64,000 nt of DNA, taken from the NCBI GenBank assembly GCA_026417415.1, contig JAOADG010000008.1, forward strand, positions 124,001 to 188,000, given 5' to 3'. The DNA is from a bacterium (GTDB lineage: Bacteria; Electryoneota; JAOADG01). Under the pieces are notes generated by a model. The model saw nothing but the letters and a program-made list of their open reading frames with translations, was not told where the DNA came from and made no database searches. Below, piece by piece: positions 11,455-52,339 of this stretch; the stretch's first letter is position 1, and each line of letters begins with the position of its first letter. The position numbers were made by a program, and so were the translations under genes.

Positions 11455-13220
11455 ATTGGCAATTTGAAAAAGGTAGCTCTTTCGTCAAGACAAAAACTAT
11501 AATTGACAACTACAATGGGCTTCTTTTTCATCATCCTCAAACCATTCTTGAATCCCACAATCCAGAAAATGTTATTGAAATATTACAACAAGTAGAATGG
11601 TATCAGCAAAAAGGGTATTACTGTGTGGGACTGCTTGCATATGAAGCAGCAATTGCATTCAATAAAAGAATGAGGGTTAAACCCAAAGGTGTAGTACCTT
11701 TGATCTGGTTTGCTGTTTATGAGAATTTTCAATCATTCAATACAAATGAATTGGCCAATAGTTCTAAAGGGAATTCAACACCCCATTTCAATTCATGGAA
11801 TAGCGAATTGAATTCAGAGGAGTATCAAAGAAAACTTGAACAAATCAAACAGTATCTAATTTATGGAGACACTTATCAAGTCAATTTTACTTACCGTTTG
11901 ACCTGTCCATTTGAAGAAGATCCTCTGAATTATTTTTTATCCATTGATGCTTCACAGCAATCCGATTTTGCTATGCTTATCCATTTGGGAGAATTCATTG
12001 TAATTTCTACGTCACCTGAGCTTTTTTTTCAAAAAACAAACCATCACATTACTTGTAAACCAATGAAAGGTACCATTGAGCGAGGTCTTTCTTTTCGTCA
12101 AGATGAGCAACAAAAACAAAAATTAAAATTTTCAGAAAAACAGCGTGCAGAAAATGTGATGATTGTAGATATGATTCGAAATGATTTAGGAAAAATTGCT
12201 CAAGTTGGGTCTGTCAAGGTAGATAAACTATTCCAGGTGGAAACCTATCCAACTTTACACCAGTTAACTTCAACAATACAAGCGAAAACGAATTCAAATT
12301 TAGTTGAAATTTTTCAAGCTTTGTTTCCCTGTGCTTCAATTACAGGCGCACCTAAAATACGAACTATGGAAATTATAGAGGAACTGGAAAACAGTCCAAG
12401 AGGATTTTACTGCGGAGCTATCGGTCTTTTGGAACCGTTTGATAGAACAAGGTTTCAAGTAGCCATTCGAACGGTAACGGTGAATACAAAAACGAAATCG
12501 GCAGAATTTGGGACAGGGAGCGGGATTGTTTGGGATTCATCTATAAAAGATGAATGGCAAGAAACAAAAACGAAAATGAGTTTTCTTATACACACACCAC
12601 CAACCTTTCATTTAATAGAAACAATGCGGTGGAATGCTTCCACAGGAATTGTACTGTTGGAAGAGCATTTGGAGAGATTAGAAGAAAGTGCTTTTTACTT
12701 TCAATTCAAATTCAATAAAGATGAGGTTATTCACAATTTGCAAAATTTTTTACAAAAAATTGAAACGAAAGAAGCAATGTTAAGAATGTTATTATCAAAA
12801 GATGGAAAGACAAATATTACCTCTCATCCAATACCATCTCTAAAAGAGTTGTACTTACTAAAAATTGCTTCAAAACCGATACAAAGCGATACTATATTTC
12901 TATATCATAAAACGACCAATCGTGATCTATACAATCATTTTTTGAATGAAATGAGTAATTGTGATGATGTACTTTTATGGAATGAAAGAGGTGAAATAAC
13001 AGAAACCACTAAGTTTAATCTTGTTATGAAAAAAAATGATACCTTCACTACACCCAAAGAGGAATGTGGTTTACTAAATGGATGTATGAGAAGAAGGTTA
13101 CTGAAAGAGGGAAAAATTCAAGAAGGCATTGTGACTCTTGAAGATATACGCAATGCTGATCAAATTGTTTTAATCAATTCTGTACGTGGTTGGTGTATTG
13201 GAAAACTATTTGATGGATGA
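11451..13220 (+). CDS. pabB: Aminodeoxychorismate synthase component I fused to aminodeoxychorismate lyase (PabB-PabC)
   Basis: A 589-residue fusion that turns chorismate plus ammonia into p-aminobenzoate for folate. Residues about 1-375 are the chorismate-binding PabB domain (CKPMKGTIERG, MIRNDLGKIAQVG, SITGAPKIRTMEI, GIGSGIVWDS-like ending). Residues about 385-589 are a class IV aminotransferase fold. It keeps the PLP lysine in the YHKTTNR position and the GEITETTKFN motif, so the lyase half looks active. The start overlaps pabA by 4 bases (ATGA), which couples the two subunits. The anthranilate-synthase Trp feedback motif was not recognised, consistent with PABA rather than Trp synthesis. 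Confidence 0.9.
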   Translation: MNWQFEKGSSFVKTKTIIDNYNGLLFHHPQTILESHNPENVIEILQQVEWYQQKGYYCVGLLAYEAAIAFNKRMRVKPKGVVPLIWFAVYENFQSFNTNELANSSKGNSTPHFNSWNSELNSEEYQRKLEQIKQYLIYGDTYQVNFTYRLTCPFEEDPLNYFLSIDASQQSDFAMLIHLGEFIVISTSPELFFQKTNHHITCKPMKGTIERGLSFRQDEQQKQKLKFSEKQRAENVMIVDMIRNDLGKIAQVGSVKVDKLFQVETYPTLHQLTSTIQAKTNSNLVEIFQALFPCASITGAPKIRTMEIIEELENSPRGFYCGAIGLLEPFDRTRFQVAIRTVTVNTKTKSAEFGTGSGIVWDSSIKDEWQETKTKMSFLIHTPPTFHLIETMRWNASTGIVLLEEHLERLEESAFYFQFKFNKDEVIHNLQNFLQKIETKEAMLRMLLSKDGKTNITSHPIPSLKELYLLKIASKPIQSDTIFLYHKTTNRDLYNHFLNEMSNCDDVLLWNERGEITETTKFNLVMKKNDTFTTPKEECGLLNGCMRRRLLKEGKIQEGIVTLEDIRNADQIVLINSVRGWCIGKLFDG

Positions 13221-13584
13221 ATTCTATTCAGAAGTTTATTTAGATCACTTTTTTAATCCACGTTTTATTGGACTGCTAGATAGATATACCCACTCAGCAG
13301 AATTTACCACCGAACAAATTGGTTGTTACGATCAGGTAGAATTACGCTTAAATATCGTTAATCAAATTCTTACGGATGCATCCTTTCGCGGAAGGTTGTG
13401 TTCGGGAAGTATTTCGGCAATGTCGTTGTGTTTAACTTCGGTTATGGGAAAGTCATTACAAGAAATTCAAAAATTTACACCAGAAGATTTAGCCCAATTA
13501 TGGGGTTGGGTCCCAAAAGGAAAAGAACATTCCATAGATTTAGCAATAAAGGTGCTTCATCGTGCAATTGGGCAACATGCGTAG
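13213..13584 (+). CDS. NifU/IscU-like iron-sulfur scaffold homologue lacking the third ligand cysteine
   Basis: About 123 residues from the ATG at 13213, which overlaps the end of the pabBC fusion by 8 bases. The reading frame is also open upstream from a GTG at 13186. The fold signature of IscU/SufU is recognisable: YLDHFFNPRFIGLL near the N-terminus, C38-x-D40 (IGCYDQVEL) and C63 in RLCSGSIS. The third cluster ligand, normally the Cys of the C-terminal HC pair, is Arg here (VLHRAIG, R117; codon CGT, one base from TGT). An extra Cys, C73, sits nearby. The protein may hold a cluster differently, act without one, or be non-functional. It is not adjacent to other Fe-S genes. Confidence 0.7.
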   Translation: MDEFYSEVYLDHFFNPRFIGLLDRYTHSAEFTTEQIGCYDQVELRLNIVNQILTDASFRGRLCSGSISAMSLCLTSVMGKSLQEIQKFTPEDLAQLWGWVPKGKEHSIDLAIKVLHRAIGQHA

Positions 13585-45347: not shown

Positions 45348-45722
45348 TTATCCGCAGGCCTTAAAACTCGAACCACAGCCACAAGTTTTTGAAGCATTGG
45401 GATTACGTACTTTGAATCCCCCACCGATTAAATTCTCTTCATAATCAACAGTTGCACCTTTGAGGTAACGTATGCTTTCGCTATCTACAACAAAGGTAAT
45501 GCCATTTTTTTCAAATTGTACATCTCCATCTTCTAAAGGTTGGTCATCAAACATCAATCCATAACTCAAACCTTTACATCCACCGGCCTGAACAAAGATG
45601 CGCAAAGGCAAACTCATTTGATCGTTTGCGGATTGAAGTTTCTTAATTTGTTTGATAGCATTGTCAGTAATGAATAAAGGTTCAGTATTGGTTTTAGCAA
45701 CATTGGGTGTAACTTCGCTCAT
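45348..45722 (-). CDS. Iron-sulfur cluster carrier, IscA/ErpA (HesB) family
   Basis: A 124-residue A-type carrier that delivers [2Fe-2S] or [4Fe-4S] clusters to client proteins. The three conserved cysteines are in AGGCKGLSYGL and KTCGCGSSF, so the cluster site is intact. AGGGGGA lies a few bases before the ATG. It is the last gene of the Rrf2-korAB operon, 55 bases after korB, next to Fe-S-containing oxidoreductase subunits that could be its clients. Assignment to ErpA rather than IscA or SufA is not possible from motifs. Confidence 0.9.
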   Translation of the reverse strand: MSEVTPNVAKTNTEPLFITDNAIKQIKKLQSANDQMSLPLRIFVQAGGCKGLSYGLMFDDQPLEDGDVQFEKNGITFVVDSESIRYLKGATVDYEENLIGGGFKVRNPNASKTCGCGSSFKACG

Positions 45723-45777: not shown

Positions 45778-46638
45778 TTAAAAAGCGGTATGCTTCATCA
45801 AAGTTTCAAAAGTTAAATCATCCGCGAACTTGTTTAGTTTATTTTGACGAACGATACGTAAATTTTCTTCTTGAGTGATTCGCTGTTGTTGAAAATAAAT
45901 TCCGCGATACATCTTACCTTGATGTAAGGAAAGTAGAATAGCTTTTTCTCGATCCGAAGGATCATGTCCTTCTGGAATAGGCGATAAAAGCTGCTTGTAA
46001 TATTCAAAACTAACATTTTTATTAAATGTTGGACATGGCGATAGTACATGGATGAAGCTAAATCCTTTGTGTTCAATTCCTTTCCGAATGATTTCAGCAA
46101 GTTCAGCTACGTGTGCAGTAAAACCACGTGCAACAAAACTTGCGTGATGGGCTAAGGTAAGTAAAACAGGGTCTAAAGGTGGTTCTTTTACTCCATAAGG
46201 TGTACTACTGGTAATTTGTTCCAAAGGAGTTGTAGGAGAACTTTGACCTTTCGTTAAACCATAAATACTGTTGTCCAACATCAAATAGGTAACGTTAGGA
46301 TTTCTACGTGCGATATGCGGTAAATGACCTCCACCTATTCCAATCCCATCGCCATCACCACCAACCACAATGACAGTAAGATTTGGATTGGCAAGTTTGA
46401 TACCCATCGCTATAGGCAAAGCTCGACCATGAACACTATGAAAAGAGAATGATTTAACAAAGTAAGGCAATCGCCCAGAACATCCGATTCCTGATACTAA
46501 AACAGTATGTGATGGATCCAATTCCAACTCAGCCATTGCTTGATAAAGTGCTGCAAGAGCACCATAATCACCACAACCCGGGCACCAAACGGGTTGGGCA
46601 TTTTCAGCTTTGTATGCGAGCGGTCGGATGTTTCCCAA
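45778..46638 (-). CDS. korB: 2-oxoacid:ferredoxin oxidoreductase subunit beta
   Basis: The TPP- and [4Fe-4S]-binding subunit of a 2-oxoglutarate (or related 2-oxoacid):ferredoxin oxidoreductase. Cluster cysteines are in WCPGCGDYG, GIGCSGR and LSPCPTF. The thiamine motif GDGDGIGIGGGH with NSIYGLTKGQ is complete. It is 286 residues. The start is TTG at 46638, supported by GGAG seven bases upstream, so it begins inside korA with a 35-base overlap. Substrate preference (2-oxoglutarate versus pyruvate) is inferred from family resemblance only. Confidence 0.92.
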   Translation of the reverse strand: MGNIRPLAYKAENAQPVWCPGCGDYGALAALYQAMAELELDPSHTVLVSGIGCSGRLPYFVKSFSFHSVHGRALPIAMGIKLANPNLTVIVVGGDGDGIGIGGGHLPHIARRNPNVTYLMLDNSIYGLTKGQSSPTTPLEQITSSTPYGVKEPPLDPVLLTLAHHASFVARGFTAHVAELAEIIRKGIEHKGFSFIHVLSPCPTFNKNVSFEYYKQLLSPIPEGHDPSDREKAILLSLHQGKMYRGIYFQQQRITQEENLRIVRQNKLNKFADDLTFETLMKHTAF

Positions 46639-48313
46639 TTTTTATCTCCGGAAAGTTTAAAATTTCGTGTACGATTTCAAATTCTGTAAAAGGCAAACCA
46701 GTAATTTTATGAATAAGATCTGATTCCAAAGAAACGTATGAATGTACAAGTTTTCTAAGCTGACCACTAAAATTCTCTTCAACAAAAAAAATGTGCGATA
46801 GGTTTTCTGACCAGCGAATAAACTGGTCTTTCGGAAATGGATTTAACCAACGAAAATGAAATTGTCCGATAGATTGTCCTAAAATATCAGAGAGAATCTC
46901 TCGTGCTTTGCGTATCACACCAAAGGTTGAACCCCATCCGACTAAACCTATTCCTCCTTCAACACCTCTTTCTTCTACACCCATCGTCCAAAATGGATGA
47001 TCAATAATTCTATTGAATTTCTTTTCACGATAACGAACCTTGTGTTGATGATTTTGAGGTGAATAATCGGGTTGTCCATCATCATTATGTTCAAGTCCTG
47101 TAACCAAAATGGTTTGTTGTGATAAAGCAGGAATTGATTTACGATAAAATGTTGCTGGTAAGTAGGGTTGTACAATTTCCATTTCGTTTGCTTCAACCGT
47201 TTCAAGTCGGTAACCCAATGATTGATCAGATAATAGTATCACAGGTCCTTGTACTAAATCTGCAATATCAAAAGCAACTTGTGTGAATAAAAATGCTTCT
47301 TTAACATTTGCAGGTGCGAGTACAACACGTGGTGATTCACCCGGAGACCCATACAACGCAAAGAATAAGTCACTTTGTTCTGTTTTGGTAGGCATACCAG
47401 TAGAGGGACCAGCTCTTTGCACATTGATAAGAACAATTGGAATTTCTGCCATCACACTCAAATTGATTAATTCACTCATGAGTGCAAATCCCGGTCCACT
47501 TGTAGCAGTTAAAGCACGTTTGCCTGCAAAAGAAGCACCTAAACAACTTGCTAATGCTGACATTTCATCTTCAGTTTGAATGAATACTCCATCCTGTTTG
47601 GGGAGTTCTTTTGCTAACATTTCTAAAATCGGGGTTGCAGGAGTAATAGGGTAACCCGCAACGAATTCACATTTTGCTGCAAGTGCTCCTAATGCCATTG
47701 CTTGGTTACCACTCAATAAATAGAATTTTTTCGTTTTTGTTTCTGGTTCAAGTTCAAGAAGATGGTGTTCTTGAGATACTAAATTCCATCCCATTTGAAA
47801 AGCAGATTGATTTTTTTCTATAAGAGTAAGATCGTTACGTTTTTTAGAAAATTTTTCAATCAGTACTTTTTCTGAAAGTTCGTAGGGCAATTGTAAATAT
47901 TTTGCTAAAAATCCAGTAACGATGGCACTTTTGTAGAAAACGGCTCCAAATGCCTTTTTAGTCATTTCATGAAACGGAATTTCAATCCTTTCTAAAACTT
48001 GAAATTGTGCAGTAGCTTGAAGTTGTTTTTCTAAAATGATGCGGCTATTGTAATGGACAAGAGGTTGACAAATTTGAACTGCTTCTTCGTTTAAGCAAAC
48101 CACTACGTCGGCTTGATTTCCAACTGTTTCAACGCGGTCACGTCCGAATCGCAAGCGATAAACTGCTAATCCACCTTTGATTTCAGCAGGATAAGTTCTA
48201 ATAGAGAAAACATAAAATCCATTTTGAATAAGAGCAGATGATACCATTTCACCGATTGAAATAATCCCTTCTCCGCCTTCACCACCAATCCAAATTGAAT
48301 ATTCATTTTTCAT
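46604..48313 (-). CDS. korA: 2-oxoacid:ferredoxin oxidoreductase subunit alpha (fused gamma-alpha)
   Basis: About 569 residues from the ATG at 48313; a GTG at 48340 would add nine. Residues 1-190 are the gamma domain (IGGEGGEGIISIGEM, EIKGGLAVYRLRFG). The remainder is the alpha, pyrimidine-binding part (LSGNQAMALGALAAKCEFVAGYPITPATPI, TATSGPGFALMSE). Together with KorB it makes a two-subunit enzyme linking 2-oxoacid oxidation, or reductive carboxylation, to ferredoxin. It overlaps the upstream desulfurase homologue by 11 bases, so the two are translated in tandem. Confidence 0.92.
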   Translation of the reverse strand: MKNEYSIWIGGEGGEGIISIGEMVSSALIQNGFYVFSIRTYPAEIKGGLAVYRLRFGRDRVETVGNQADVVVCLNEEAVQICQPLVHYNSRIILEKQLQATAQFQVLERIEIPFHEMTKKAFGAVFYKSAIVTGFLAKYLQLPYELSEKVLIEKFSKKRNDLTLIEKNQSAFQMGWNLVSQEHHLLELEPETKTKKFYLLSGNQAMALGALAAKCEFVAGYPITPATPILEMLAKELPKQDGVFIQTEDEMSALASCLGASFAGKRALTATSGPGFALMSELINLSVMAEIPIVLINVQRAGPSTGMPTKTEQSDLFFALYGSPGESPRVVLAPANVKEAFLFTQVAFDIADLVQGPVILLSDQSLGYRLETVEANEMEIVQPYLPATFYRKSIPALSQQTILVTGLEHNDDGQPDYSPQNHQHKVRYREKKFNRIIDHPFWTMGVEERGVEGGIGLVGWGSTFGVIRKAREILSDILGQSIGQFHFRWLNPFPKDQFIRWSENLSHIFFVEENFSGQLRKLVHSYVSLESDLIHKITGLPFTEFEIVHEILNFPEIKIGKHPTARIQS

Positions 48314-49511
48314 GGATGGTCTCAGAATGAAATGGATCACTTATTACTGGTGACATAGAGAATAAACGTTTCACAACGCGCGATAAAGTAGATACCCCAT
48401 ATTCAATTTCTTCTTCAGTGGTGGACCACCCCACTGAAAGAGTAACTCCTCCATTTAATTGTTCTTTTGGAACACCACAGTTTTCTAAAACATAACTTGC
48501 GCCAAGTTCAGGTTGGACACATGCTGTTCCAGACATTGCTGCTACGGAATGATAACCCAATTCAAGCAATAATGCTTCACCCTCTATCCAGTCCAAACGA
48601 AAGCTATACAATTGTGGTAAACGATTTTCTGGGTCTCCTGTTTCGTGAATAAAGGGAGCATAGGGTTCATGGAATTCAAGTTGCAATTTTCTTTTGATTA
48701 AATTGGTTCGTTGTTTGAGTTGATCCACTCTTGTGAAACCTTCTTTTATAGCAATTTTTGCAGCTTCGGCCATTCCGACAATTGCGCTAAGATTTTCTGT
48801 TCCTGCGCGTCTTTTTTGTTCTTGTGCTCCACCCACTATGAACGGAAGAAGTTCAATACTCTTATCTATCCATAATGCCGCAGCACCAATCGGTCCATAG
48901 AAACCATTTGCACCAAATGCCAAAGAAGTAATATTAAGTTCAGCAATCTTCAAAGGTAGAATTCCAACATAACCCCATCCATCACTATGTAATGGTACAC
49001 CTTTCTCTTTACAAATTTCACCCACTTTTGCGATAGGTTGAATTGTACCGATTTCAGTATTGGCAAGTTGTACAGCAACCAAAGCAGTATCATCACGGAT
49101 TGCATCTTTGAGATAATCTAATTCAACAACACCAAACTCATTGACGGGAATTTCTTCAATTTCAAACCCTTCCCATTTTAACCGTTCTGCAGCTTTTTTA
49201 ATTGATGGATGCTCAATACTACTGATTAGAAGGTGTTTACCGCGTTCGCTATTTTTTGCGATACCATAAATTGCGGTATTGTTTGCTTCTGTAGTTGAGG
49301 CAGTAAAAATTATTTCTATGGGATCATAAGCTGAAATCAATTGGGCAATCTGATCTCTAGCTGCATTTAAAGATCTTTGGGATTGAATACCGAATGGATG
49401 TAAACGTGAGGATGGGTTTGCAAAATCACGTTGCAAACTCATTTGCATGGCTTGGATCACCTCTGGCAAGACAGGTGCAGCACTAATCCAATCAAAATAA
49501 CAGTAATTCAT
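48303..49511 (-). CDS. IscS/NifS-family protein lacking the PLP lysine (inactive cysteine desulfurase homologue)
   Basis: A 402-residue fold-type I protein clearly of the cysteine-desulfurase family: NPSSRLHPFG, FTASTTEANNTAIYG, H101 in SSIEHPSI, NTEIGTIQPI, D177, RRAGTENLSAIVG and C331 in MSGTACVQPELGASYVL. The key difference is at the S-x-H-K-x-x-GP-K-G site, which reads FGANGFYGPIG. Here His is N202 and the Schiff-base Lys is G203, and the PLP-contacting Gln is G180. Without the lysine, normal desulfurase chemistry is not expected. The archaeal Archaeoglobus fulgidus IscS is a known precedent for loss of this lysine and activity. It lies between an Rrf2 regulator and korAB. Confidence 0.88.
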   Translation of the reverse strand: MNYCYFDWISAAPVLPEVIQAMQMSLQRDFANPSSRLHPFGIQSQRSLNAARDQIAQLISAYDPIEIIFTASTTEANNTAIYGIAKNSERGKHLLISSIEHPSIKKAAERLKWEGFEIEEIPVNEFGVVELDYLKDAIRDDTALVAVQLANTEIGTIQPIAKVGEICKEKGVPLHSDGWGYVGILPLKIAELNITSLAFGANGFYGPIGAAALWIDKSIELLPFIVGGAQEQKRRAGTENLSAIVGMAEAAKIAIKEGFTRVDQLKQRTNLIKRKLQLEFHEPYAPFIHETGDPENRLPQLYSFRLDWIEGEALLLELGYHSVAAMSGTACVQPELGASYVLENCGVPKEQLNGGVTLSVGWSTTEEEIEYGVSTLSRVVKRLFSMSPVISDPFHSETIHEK

Positions 49512-49975
49512 TAGTGTCTTGATTCAACCATCGGAATGATTGAGTGTTGATGGAAGCGTAAGTAAGATGGTTTACGTTTTTGTTTTTCTAACAATTGTGC
49601 TAAACTAATTTCAGAAAATCTTCTAATCACTTCATTCGTTATGTCATCCATAACATCGTGAATAGCGCAATGTGGAATATTTCTACAAGGTTTGCCATTC
49701 AATTTACAATCGTTGATCACCATTTCGCCTTCTATAGCAAGTACAATATCATACAAGCTAATTTCTTCAAGTTGTTTGCTAATCACCATTCCACCACCAA
49801 CACCACGTTTGGTATCCAGTAATTTTGCTCGTACTAAATTGGAAACCACTTTATGTAGAAAAGCCATTGGTATATTGTGGGTTTCCGCAACTTTGCGTGT
49901 AGTTAAAGGTTCATTGGCTTCTGCCAATGCTAGCATTAGACGAATTCCGTAATCCGATTGCTTGGTGATAATCAT
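49511..49975 (-). CDS. Rrf2-family transcriptional regulator (IscR/NsrR type)
   Basis: A 154-residue winged-helix repressor. MIITKQSDYGIRLMLALAE and the recognition helix MAFLHKVVSNLVRAKLL are classic Rrf2. Three cysteines in DCKLNGKPC and HCAIHD (spacing C-x6-C-x5-C) could ligate a [2Fe-2S] or [4Fe-4S] cluster and make binding depend on iron-sulfur or redox status. It is first in the operon with the IscS homologue, korAB and an IscA carrier, which it probably regulates. The stop overlaps the next start by one base. AAGGATAAGGT precedes the ATG. Confidence 0.92.
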   Translation of the reverse strand: MIITKQSDYGIRLMLALAEANEPLTTRKVAETHNIPMAFLHKVVSNLVRAKLLDTKRGVGGGMVISKQLEEISLYDIVLAIEGEMVINDCKLNGKPCRNIPHCAIHDVMDDITNEVIRRFSEISLAQLLEKQKRKPSYLRFHQHSIIPMVESRH

Positions 49976-49978
49976 ACC

Positions 49979-49999
49979 TTATCCTTATATTATGGATAA
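49979..49999 (-). promoter_or_regulatory. Inverted repeat overlapping the Rrf2 ribosome-binding site
   Basis: TTATCC and GGATAA, separated by 9 AT-only bases, sit directly before the Rrf2 start and include the Shine-Dalgarno sequence. This could be an autoregulatory operator or a weak hairpin hiding the ribosome site. Confidence 0.35.
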
Positions 50000-50027
50000 A
50001 AATAGTCAACAATGTGATACGAGAAAA

Positions 50028-50085
50028 GGGTCAGTAAGTTAGGGGGGAAGTAACTTGGAACTGACCCATTTTCCCTGGGGGGAAA
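50028..50085. promoter_or_regulatory. Pair of nested and adjacent hairpins in the rrf2/M14 intergenic region
   Basis: GGGTCAGT (50028-50035) pairs with ACTGACCC (50060-50067). Inside it, AAGTTA (50036) pairs with TAACTT (50051), giving a 14-bp stem with a 3-base bulge and a G-rich loop. Directly after comes TTTCCC (50070) pairing with GGGAAA (50080). The region holds the divergent promoters for the Rrf2 operon and the M14 gene. It may be an untranslated leader structure, an sRNA or a terminator-like element; no known riboswitch is recognised. Confidence 0.45.
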
Positions 50086-50191
50086 TCTGCAAACAATGTA
50101 CTAAATTTCACGAGGGAATGCAAATGTAAAATTCTTTGCCAACTATTGTGAACATTTAAAAAATACTATATTGATAAAAAAGATTAAAAGC

Positions 50192-52339
50192 ATGAAGCGA
50201 TTGCTTGTTTTAGTATGGATTTCATTACTATTGATTCACCACGTAGATTGTATCTATGCTGCGATTTACAAACTCCCTAAACATTCCTCATTAGACGAAA
50301 GCTGGATTTTTACTCTGGGAGGCGAAGTTCTTTGTGGTTCAAATCAAGATACCCTCTTGATTGAATTTCCCAATAATTTAACTATTGTTGATCTTCAAAG
50401 GTTTTTCCCACAAATTCGTTGGATAGCATCCAGTGCTTATGATTTATTAGGCGCTGAACCTTCAAATATTGATGAAACCGATACTTATCGTACGTGGTCC
50501 ACCATACTAACGGAGTTGGCTCAATATCAAACCCAATATCCCAATTGTTTTCAATTGGATACCATTGGTTTTACAGTTCAAAATCGACCTATTCTTCATG
50601 GAAAAATTGCCGATAGCGTAATCCTCCAACGGGACGTTCCAAAACTTTATCTGGTTGCAGGAACACATGGAAACGAAATCATCTCAGTAGAAGTATTACT
50701 GAATTTTGTACAGTGGATATTGAATCAAACATTAACTGATACCACTATACAAAGATTGCTTCAACAAACAGAAATTCATTTCATTCCAGTATTGAACCCT
50801 GATGGATATGTTATTCAGCAACGGCAAAATGCACGAATGGTTGATCTGAATCGAAATTTCAATTATTACTGGGGTCAATTTGCAAATCAATATGGCAGTT
50901 CACCTTTATCAGAACCTGAAACCTTTGCATTGGATTCTTTACTTCGAGTAATTCAACCCACCTTAGGTATCAGTTATCATTCTTATGGAGAACAAATTTT
51001 AAGGCCTTATTCGGGAAGATCTCGCCCATCACCGAGCAACCCCATCTTTCAAAACGTTTCCAATCTTTATTGGTTGCATAATCCAAGTTACACGCAAATG
51101 TTTGGTTGGCAACTCTATTTACACGGGGGAGAGCATAACGATCATTGCATTTCCATGCATTGGTTACCAAGTATCACCATTGAAGTATGGCGCGGTCCTA
51201 ACTATAATCCACCAGTGGATAGTATTGCATCGGTTTCTATTCCTCACCGAAACGCTATTGTGCAACTTTTACAAAGGATTACACAAGAGCAAGTAACAGG
51301 AATCGTTAGGGATGCACATACGGGACTACCTATTTTTAACGCACAATATCAAATATTGAATCAATTTGATAGTTCCTATGCTTTGAAATATGTAAACCCG
51401 CAAACCGGACGTTTCCGAAGTTTACAAATCGCATCTTCAATTACTATTCGTTTCCAAGCCGAGGGTTATTTAACCAGAGATGTCACTTTTTCAATTCCTC
51501 AAAATGGCCAACCTTTTGAACAAGATGTTTTATTATTTACTTCATCCGCTTTTTTAAGTGGAAACATTACTCTTTACAGTCCTCAACAGCATGATACAGT
51601 TCAAATCCGTATTCAAAATCAAATTCATTACATTCGCTCCAATGAAGATTTTTTACTTTCCAATTTGCTTGCAGGAACAGACACAGTGGTTATCGGTGAC
51701 TCCATGACTACTGAACTAATCAAAATTCCCATACAACTTGTTTCTAGTGAAACAACTCAGGTTACTGCAAATATCGCCAAATTGTTACCCCCCATTCATC
51801 TTTCTGGAAGATGGGAGCAAGGGATCGCCATCATTCAATGGCAATCACCATTCAATTCAGAGGCAGCCAATAGCAGAATACGTGGGTATCGGATCTGGAG
51901 AGACACTACGATGATTATTCCGTGGTCATTAGATACTTCATTTGCAGAACCGATGAGTTATGATACCAGAGTGTATTTTGTTCAAACGTTGTACTATGGT
52001 GGAATTAGTCCTTTTAGCGATTCTATTAGAGTCGAGTCTCCTTTTACCTCTCTAAAAAACAACGATAGACAACCTAAGGAATACGTATTGAAACCGTACC
52101 CAAATCCCTTTAATCAATCCATAGAAATAGAAATTTACTCTCCTACAAGCTCTTGGTTCACAATGAAAGTTCATAACCTTCTCGGACAACTTACCTACGA
52201 AAAAAGTTTTCTTTCTTCCACTGGAAAGCATACGATAAAGTGGTATCCGAGTGATTCAAAACACAGTGCGGGTATTTATTTTCTTACTATTATAAGTTCT
52301 TACAATAAGTATCAGTACAAATTGGTTTACTTACCGTAA
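50192..52339 (+). CDS. Secreted M14 zinc carboxypeptidase with type IX sorting domain
   Basis: About 715 residues from the ATG at 50192; a TTG at 50171 is also in frame. A signal peptide is followed by a peptidase_M14 domain with zinc ligands in GTHGNEIIS and SYHSYGEQILRPYSG, and a candidate catalytic Glu in SITIEVW. It trims C-terminal residues of extracellular peptides. After a carboxypeptidase-regulatory-like segment (VTGIVRDAHTGLPIFNAQY) and an FN3-like part, the C-terminus KPYPNPFNQSIEIEIY ... HSAGIYFLTI is a Por secretion domain. It is transcribed alone from the intergenic region shared with the Rrf2 operon. Confidence 0.88.
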   Translation: MKRLLVLVWISLLLIHHVDCIYAAIYKLPKHSSLDESWIFTLGGEVLCGSNQDTLLIEFPNNLTIVDLQRFFPQIRWIASSAYDLLGAEPSNIDETDTYRTWSTILTELAQYQTQYPNCFQLDTIGFTVQNRPILHGKIADSVILQRDVPKLYLVAGTHGNEIISVEVLLNFVQWILNQTLTDTTIQRLLQQTEIHFIPVLNPDGYVIQQRQNARMVDLNRNFNYYWGQFANQYGSSPLSEPETFALDSLLRVIQPTLGISYHSYGEQILRPYSGRSRPSPSNPIFQNVSNLYWLHNPSYTQMFGWQLYLHGGEHNDHCISMHWLPSITIEVWRGPNYNPPVDSIASVSIPHRNAIVQLLQRITQEQVTGIVRDAHTGLPIFNAQYQILNQFDSSYALKYVNPQTGRFRSLQIASSITIRFQAEGYLTRDVTFSIPQNGQPFEQDVLLFTSSAFLSGNITLYSPQQHDTVQIRIQNQIHYIRSNEDFLLSNLLAGTDTVVIGDSMTTELIKIPIQLVSSETTQVTANIAKLLPPIHLSGRWEQGIAIIQWQSPFNSEAANSRIRGYRIWRDTTMIIPWSLDTSFAEPMSYDTRVYFVQTLYYGGISPFSDSIRVESPFTSLKNNDRQPKEYVLKPYPNPFNQSIEIEIYSPTSSWFTMKVHNLLGQLTYEKSFLSSTGKHTIKWYPSDSKHSAGIYFLTIISSYNKYQYKLVYLP

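Follow-up and report, generated by a model that had tools for sequence, protein, structure and literature searches.

Gene Content of the Locus

The window, a 64,000-nucleotide stretch of a bacterial contig, carries on its reverse strand an operon that joins a homologue of the cysteine desulfurases to a 2-oxoacid:ferredoxin oxidoreductase. The features of the operon, its leader and one gene elsewhere in the window that bears on its interpretation are as follows:

49999..50084 (-), conserved leader element, common to the window genome and G001 (there at L043 7894-7981 (+))
49511..49975 (-), Rrf2-family regulator with the pattern Cys-x6-Cys-x5-Cys-x2-His
48303..49511 (-), IscS/NifS homologue without the PLP lysine, 402 amino acids (IscS'; P0001 in our searches)
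46604..48313 (-), KorA, fused gamma and alpha subunits of a 2-oxoacid:ferredoxin oxidoreductase
45778..46638 (-), KorB, the beta subunit, which binds TPP and has cysteines in CPGCG and GIGCSGR
45348..45722 (-), ErpA/IscA-type Fe-S carrier (ErpA model NF010147, 127 bits, above the cut-off)
13186..13584 (+), orphan IscU-like protein, two of three cluster cysteines kept

The stop of rrf2 and the start of iscS' overlap by 1 nt. KorA probably starts with the ATG at 48313, so that korA and the end of iscS' share 11 nt (the ORF as listed has a GTG start at 48340). An earlier note on this DNA had spoken of a regulated operon, and the Rrf2 gene overlapping iscS' at the operon head supports that description. 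We take the cysteines and histidine of the Rrf2 protein to form a pattern like that of the IscR cluster ligands. From its sequence, KorB is expected to be a [4Fe-4S] enzyme and is a candidate client.

The same gene order, a divergent M14 peptidase followed by Rrf2, IscS', KorA, KorB and ErpA, occurs in the one other genome of the same family in the set (G001), and among the genomes searched the rrf2-iscS'-korAB-erpA operon was found in these two only. The arrangement was seen at none of the other lysine-less loci compared. In the stretches read from G028 and G002 no IscS gene adjoins the fused KorA, and in G124 korAB and iscS-iscU are about 5 kb apart and on opposite strands. The window genome (G000) holds a second korAB pair (L173 3876-8188; G000:C38 about 656-660 kb), directly after sucC- and sucD-like genes, so the fused KorA and KorB of the window would constitute a separate 2-oxoacid oxidoreductase.

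Loss of the PLP Lysine and Its Conservation

The iscS' frame (48303-49511 (-)) is open and uninterrupted and reads TSLAFGANGFYGPIG. A profile alignment against solved IscS places G203 in the slot of the PLP lysine, N202 in the His slot and, within HSDGWGYVG, G180 in the Gln slot; no lysine occurs at another position of the active-site stretch. C331, within SGTACVQPELGAS, is the persulfide cysteine of the mobile loop (E. coli Cys328), and RRAGTEN is intact at 234-240. The earlier note had read the three replacements, C331 and RRAGTEN from the letters, and both the 402-residue ORF and an alignment to IscS and NifS proteins that includes Archaeoglobus fulgidus IscS confirm its reading. A 100-row alignment adds the loss of a serine (E. 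coli Ser203, here G200) and shows that the equivalents of E. coli T76, H104, N155, D180, T243 and C328 are kept; His (E. coli H205) and Gln (Q183) are both present in 77/77 of its lysine-bearing rows. The C-terminal RLFSMSP is also kept and resembles RLRSMSPL of A. fulgidus IscS. IscS' matches the class-V aminotransferase family of Pfam (PF00266, 189.5 bits) and falls below all curated NCBIfam desulfurase cut-offs, the best being NifS (332 of 530.75 bits), with the IscS model (270 of 643.2 bits) likewise under its equivalog cut-off.

The orthologue in G001 (56% identity) reads N-A in place of H-K, and its Gln and Ser are likewise replaced by Gly. The combination of G203 and G180, which the earlier note had proposed to look for in relatives, therefore recurs in part: the glycine in the Gln slot is there, and the lysine slot holds Ala in place of Gly. 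This orthologue shares the whole set of losses, Ala replacing its Lys, which puts those of IscS' far beyond chance; judged from the two sequences, the loss of the lysine is old and common to both proteins. A sequencing error or a decaying pseudogene could explain why a catalytic residue is gone, but the frame is uninterrupted, the orthologue lies in an operon of the same make-up and lacks the same residues, and the identity of IscS' between the two genomes is not lower than that of its operon neighbours KorA (51%) and Rrf2 (44%); KorB, ErpA and SufS are 74%, 72% and 74% identical. The G001 orthologue refutes this explanation, to which we assign a negligible probability, and together with the open frame it upholds the earlier argument against decay by frameshift. 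The loss of the PLP lysine is real, and the gene is intact and conserved.

An AlphaFold model of IscS', built with 25 lysine-less sequences, has a mean pLDDT of 90 and a pTM of 0.90; residues 332-335, just after Cys331, are its least certain inner segment. Foldseek ranks the ISC complex with human Nfs1 and the A. fulgidus IscS-IscU complex (4eb5) as the top matches of the model, with TM scores of 0.89-0.95, and the protein is thus predicted to keep the class-V aminotransferase fold. IscS' has this fold and the family motifs in common with the cysteine desulfurases IscS, NifS and Nfs1, and differs from them in lacking the PLP lysine as well as the His, Gln and Ser, and in scoring under the curated cut-offs. 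Since no internal PLP aldimine is possible, IscS' should not take sulfur from cysteine, and we infer from its residues that desulfurase activity has been lost.

Lysine-Less IscS Proteins in Other Genomes

With IscS' as query, about 1,200 genomes were searched, some of them repeatedly, and more than 20 lysine-less IscS came to light in a wide range of bacterial families. The rarity that the earlier note implied is not borne out, the more so as Methanosarcina acetivorans IscS1 is also reported to lack the lysine (PMC7585200). Literature searches for desulfurases without the lysine yielded archaeal cases only. Across the lysine-less proteins the lysine slot holds Q, N, S, D, T, H, R, A, G or P and the His and Gln slots are variable, while H101, D177 and C331 (E. 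coli His104, Asp180 and Cys328) are invariant in 25/25 rows. That His104 and Asp180 equivalents stay fixed in this alignment where His205, Gln183 and Lys206 are free would fit an enzyme that holds PLP through His101 and Asp177, or binds another ligand, and performs a new chemistry without the internal lysine. For IscS' we regard this as highly improbable, given that the phosphate-holding Ser and His and the ring-side Gln are replaced by Gly, Asn and Gly.

In a 74-row tree built with the active-site columns removed, the lysine-less rows fall into two groups, which requires two changes; a 52-row tree that includes more such rows places all of them, A. fulgidus IscS among them, on one side of a branch (80/80). 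Both trees are unrooted and do not give the direction of the change, which is most naturally read as the loss of the lysine by an active enzyme. Within the lysine-less rows, a long stem branch leads to IscS' and its G001 orthologue. In the first tree, without L055_1, IscS' stands beside the H-N clade with L078 as its sister; adding L055_1, itself a long-branch row, shifts IscS' next to it, and the exact sister is unsure. Relatives in the H-N clade have a 7-residue loop insertion, which IscS' lacks.

Neighbouring genes were counted over short flanks at distinct loci, in a sample picked by similarity to IscS' and with statistics that ignore kinship; on these terms, iscU or nifU adjoins 14/23 lysine-less versus 16/45 lysine-bearing loci (p=0.07), a DsrE-like gene 6/23 versus 0/45 (Fisher p=0.0009) and mnmA 0/23 versus 16/45 (p=0.0006). 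DsrE2 was confirmed by Pfam at four of the lysine-less loci. A DsrE2 or DsrE-like carrier lies beside the lysine-less IscS at L104, L109, L110, L044 and L202, and at the first three of these it adjoins the gene with no iscU neighbour. In one genome of the same phylum the lysine-less IscS follows a DsrE-like gene. At L110 the lysine-less IscS is also followed by a gene for a haem-NO-binding (HNOB) protein.

The enrichment of DsrE and DsrE2 neighbours (6/23 against 0/45), sometimes without iscU, argues for a persulfide relay in which Cys331 would accept sulfane sulfur from SufS, a rhodanese or a protein of the DsrE/TusA type and pass it on with no cluster ligation. The operons of the window genome and G001, however, contain no DsrE, TusA or rhodanese genes, and for IscS' we think such a relay unlikely.

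A different company is kept in G015 and G019, of the same phylum, where the lysine-less IscS is encoded directly before a lysine-bearing NifS, which is followed by NifU. Lysine-less paralogues ahead of lysine-bearing NifS and NifU are seen at L195 3920-5083 and L197 4478-5614, the latter having lost the His104 equivalent as well; each may form a pseudoenzyme-enzyme pair with the adjacent NifS. The gene order of G015 and G019 would suit a regulatory or structural subunit, either in a heterodimer with a lysine-bearing desulfurase or as an assembly chaperone of KorAB, whose cysteine is not used chemically, and the overlap of iscS' and korA suggests matched synthesis. The cysteine is nevertheless invariant in the 25 lysine-less rows, and the sole IscS-type partner in the window genome is only 31% identical to IscS'; we hold a subunit of this sort to be improbable.

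Comparison with Characterized and Related Proteins

In two papers (PMC7585200; PMC9769115), A. fulgidus IscS is described as having no desulfurase activity, as supplying Cys321 as a ligand of the IscU cluster and as working with IscU, and a figure legend (PMC9769115) shows PLP in the lysine-less structure. For M. acetivorans IscS1, the authors propose an action like that of A. fulgidus IscS (PMC7585200).

The A. fulgidus protein (IscS2; PDB 4eb5, 4hvk, and 4r5f for the D199K mutant) resembles IscS' in its class-V fold, its loop cysteine and its C-terminal RLxSMSP segment. The Lys, His and Gln slots are changed in both, to N-D and Ala in A. fulgidus (from the PDB match) and to N-G and Gly in IscS'. 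In both trees, however, A. fulgidus IscS2 belongs to a separate small lysine-less group apart from IscS', which differs further in the loss of Ser203, the lack of an iscU neighbour and the korAB-erpA operon. The parallel that the earlier note drew with A. fulgidus thus stands for the missing lysine and the retained loop cysteine and is incomplete as to the partner, which is IscU there; the gene here has korAB and erpA for company and no iscU beside it. M. acetivorans IscS1 (MIS/ISC-like), which we liken to IscS' by description only, is lysine-less as well, but is archaeal and encoded with IscU1.

Among the bacterial relatives, L101, L103, L104 and L106 (with iscU and/or DsrE2 neighbours) share with IscS' the lost Lys, the relaxed His and Gln and the retained Cys, Asp180 and His104; they differ in their slot residues (Q, N, S, D, T, H, R) and their neighbours and are about 37-44% identical to it. 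The kind to which IscS' belongs is widespread in bacteria and archaea and includes A. fulgidus IscS, and IscS' is a new genomic variant within it. Lysine-less IscS is accordingly a recurrent bacterial kind rather than an archaeal oddity, with, in this sample, its own genomic company of iscU and DsrE carriers and no mnmA. This matters for annotation, where family membership alone labels lysine-less proteins cysteine desulfurases.

Sulfur Supply and a Possible Scaffold in the Window Genome

The window genome is 2.2 Mb in size and scored 100% complete. Its SUF operon encodes SufC, SufB, a SufD-like protein, SufS and SufU along with an Rrf2 of its own. SufS bears the lysine, with HKM in the lysine slot, and a second lysine-bearing enzyme, the 31% identical IscS mentioned above, is encoded elsewhere directly before mnmA. 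The search for a separate lysine-bearing desulfurase that the earlier note suggested therefore turned up two, so IscS' need not supply sulfur itself.

The IscU-like protein at 13186-13584 has Ser at the Cys106 position (KxHS for KxHC) and is a possible scaffold partner of IscS'. The same type is found across the phylum, often after nifS-nifU. We considered and rejected a specific co-degeneration of IscS' with this cysteine-poor gene: the type spans several families and is also present where NifS keeps its lysine.

A Proposed Role for IscS'

The account that we prefer, and to which we give about an even chance, is that IscS' is a lysine-less pseudo-desulfurase that acts as a docking partner presenting Cys331 and serves KorAB via ErpA under Rrf2 control. 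IscS' would dock an IscU- or A-type protein or a client, and Cys331 would either ligate a cluster or carry sulfur that comes from a different enzyme, for instance SufS. Its service to the co-encoded [4Fe-4S] 2-oxoacid:ferredoxin oxidoreductase would run through ErpA, the content of the operon pointing to KorB as client and ErpA as carrier, and the Fe-S-type Rrf2 regulator would control expression of the operon. By analogy with A. fulgidus IscS, the likeliest function is that IscS' offers Cys331 to a scaffold, to a carrier or to the client itself; that it docks, what Cys331 does, which protein is the client and how the operon is regulated are each proposed from residues and gene order.

Several observations weigh against a docking or ligand role. 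The operon contains no iscU in either the window genome or G001, and the extra IscU-like protein is without one cluster cysteine. The long stem branch of IscS' and its orthologue suggests that function may have moved from the A. fulgidus type. The PLP-stacking His and the PLP-N1 Asp are kept, so PLP or another ligand may bind, and the operon is known from two genomes only. Under the docking account, the kor operon is a testable case of a lysine-less IscS tied to one metabolic enzyme and not to a general scaffold, and it bears on how sulfur or clusters are supplied once the paired desulfurase chemistry is gone.

A Conserved Leader Upstream of rrf2

The leader consists, in order, of TTTCCCCC-AGGGAA, a hairpin, CCCTTTTCTCGTA and, ten bases on, GACTATTTT. 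In both genomes the hairpin has a lower stem of 8-9 bp, a 3-nt bulge, an upper stem of 6 bp and a 9-nt C-rich loop. The alignment comprises two sequences trimmed to equal length, with one C of G000 and one stem pair of G001 omitted; in it all 14/14 pairs hold in both genomes (28/28 cells), and 8/14 are changed on both sides, as against 0-2 when the alignment is slid. In these two trimmed sequences, base pairing is thus kept through compensatory change. A model built from the same two sequences has no convincing match elsewhere among 39 genomes of the phylum, Rfam has no match for the leader, and a simple terminator scan of it found nothing. In the window genome and G001 the model has one match per genome, both at the operon.

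The GGGAA of the leader can pair with a 3' UUUUCUC, favoured in G000, or with a 5' UUUCCC, favoured in G001, and this alternative pairing makes it possible that the leader is an attenuator. One may go further and picture a dedicated Fe-S maturation operon for the 2-oxoacid:ferredoxin oxidoreductase, with a cofactor-free IscS as its client-specific docking and ligand subunit and with double control by an Fe-S-sensing Rrf2 and a new RNA attenuator; we offer this fuller picture tentatively, as one that is probably wrong in some part. The divergent gene of the locus (window 50171-52339 (+)), also kept in G001, encodes a zinc carboxypeptidase of the M14 type that carries a sorting tail for Por secretion (type IX).
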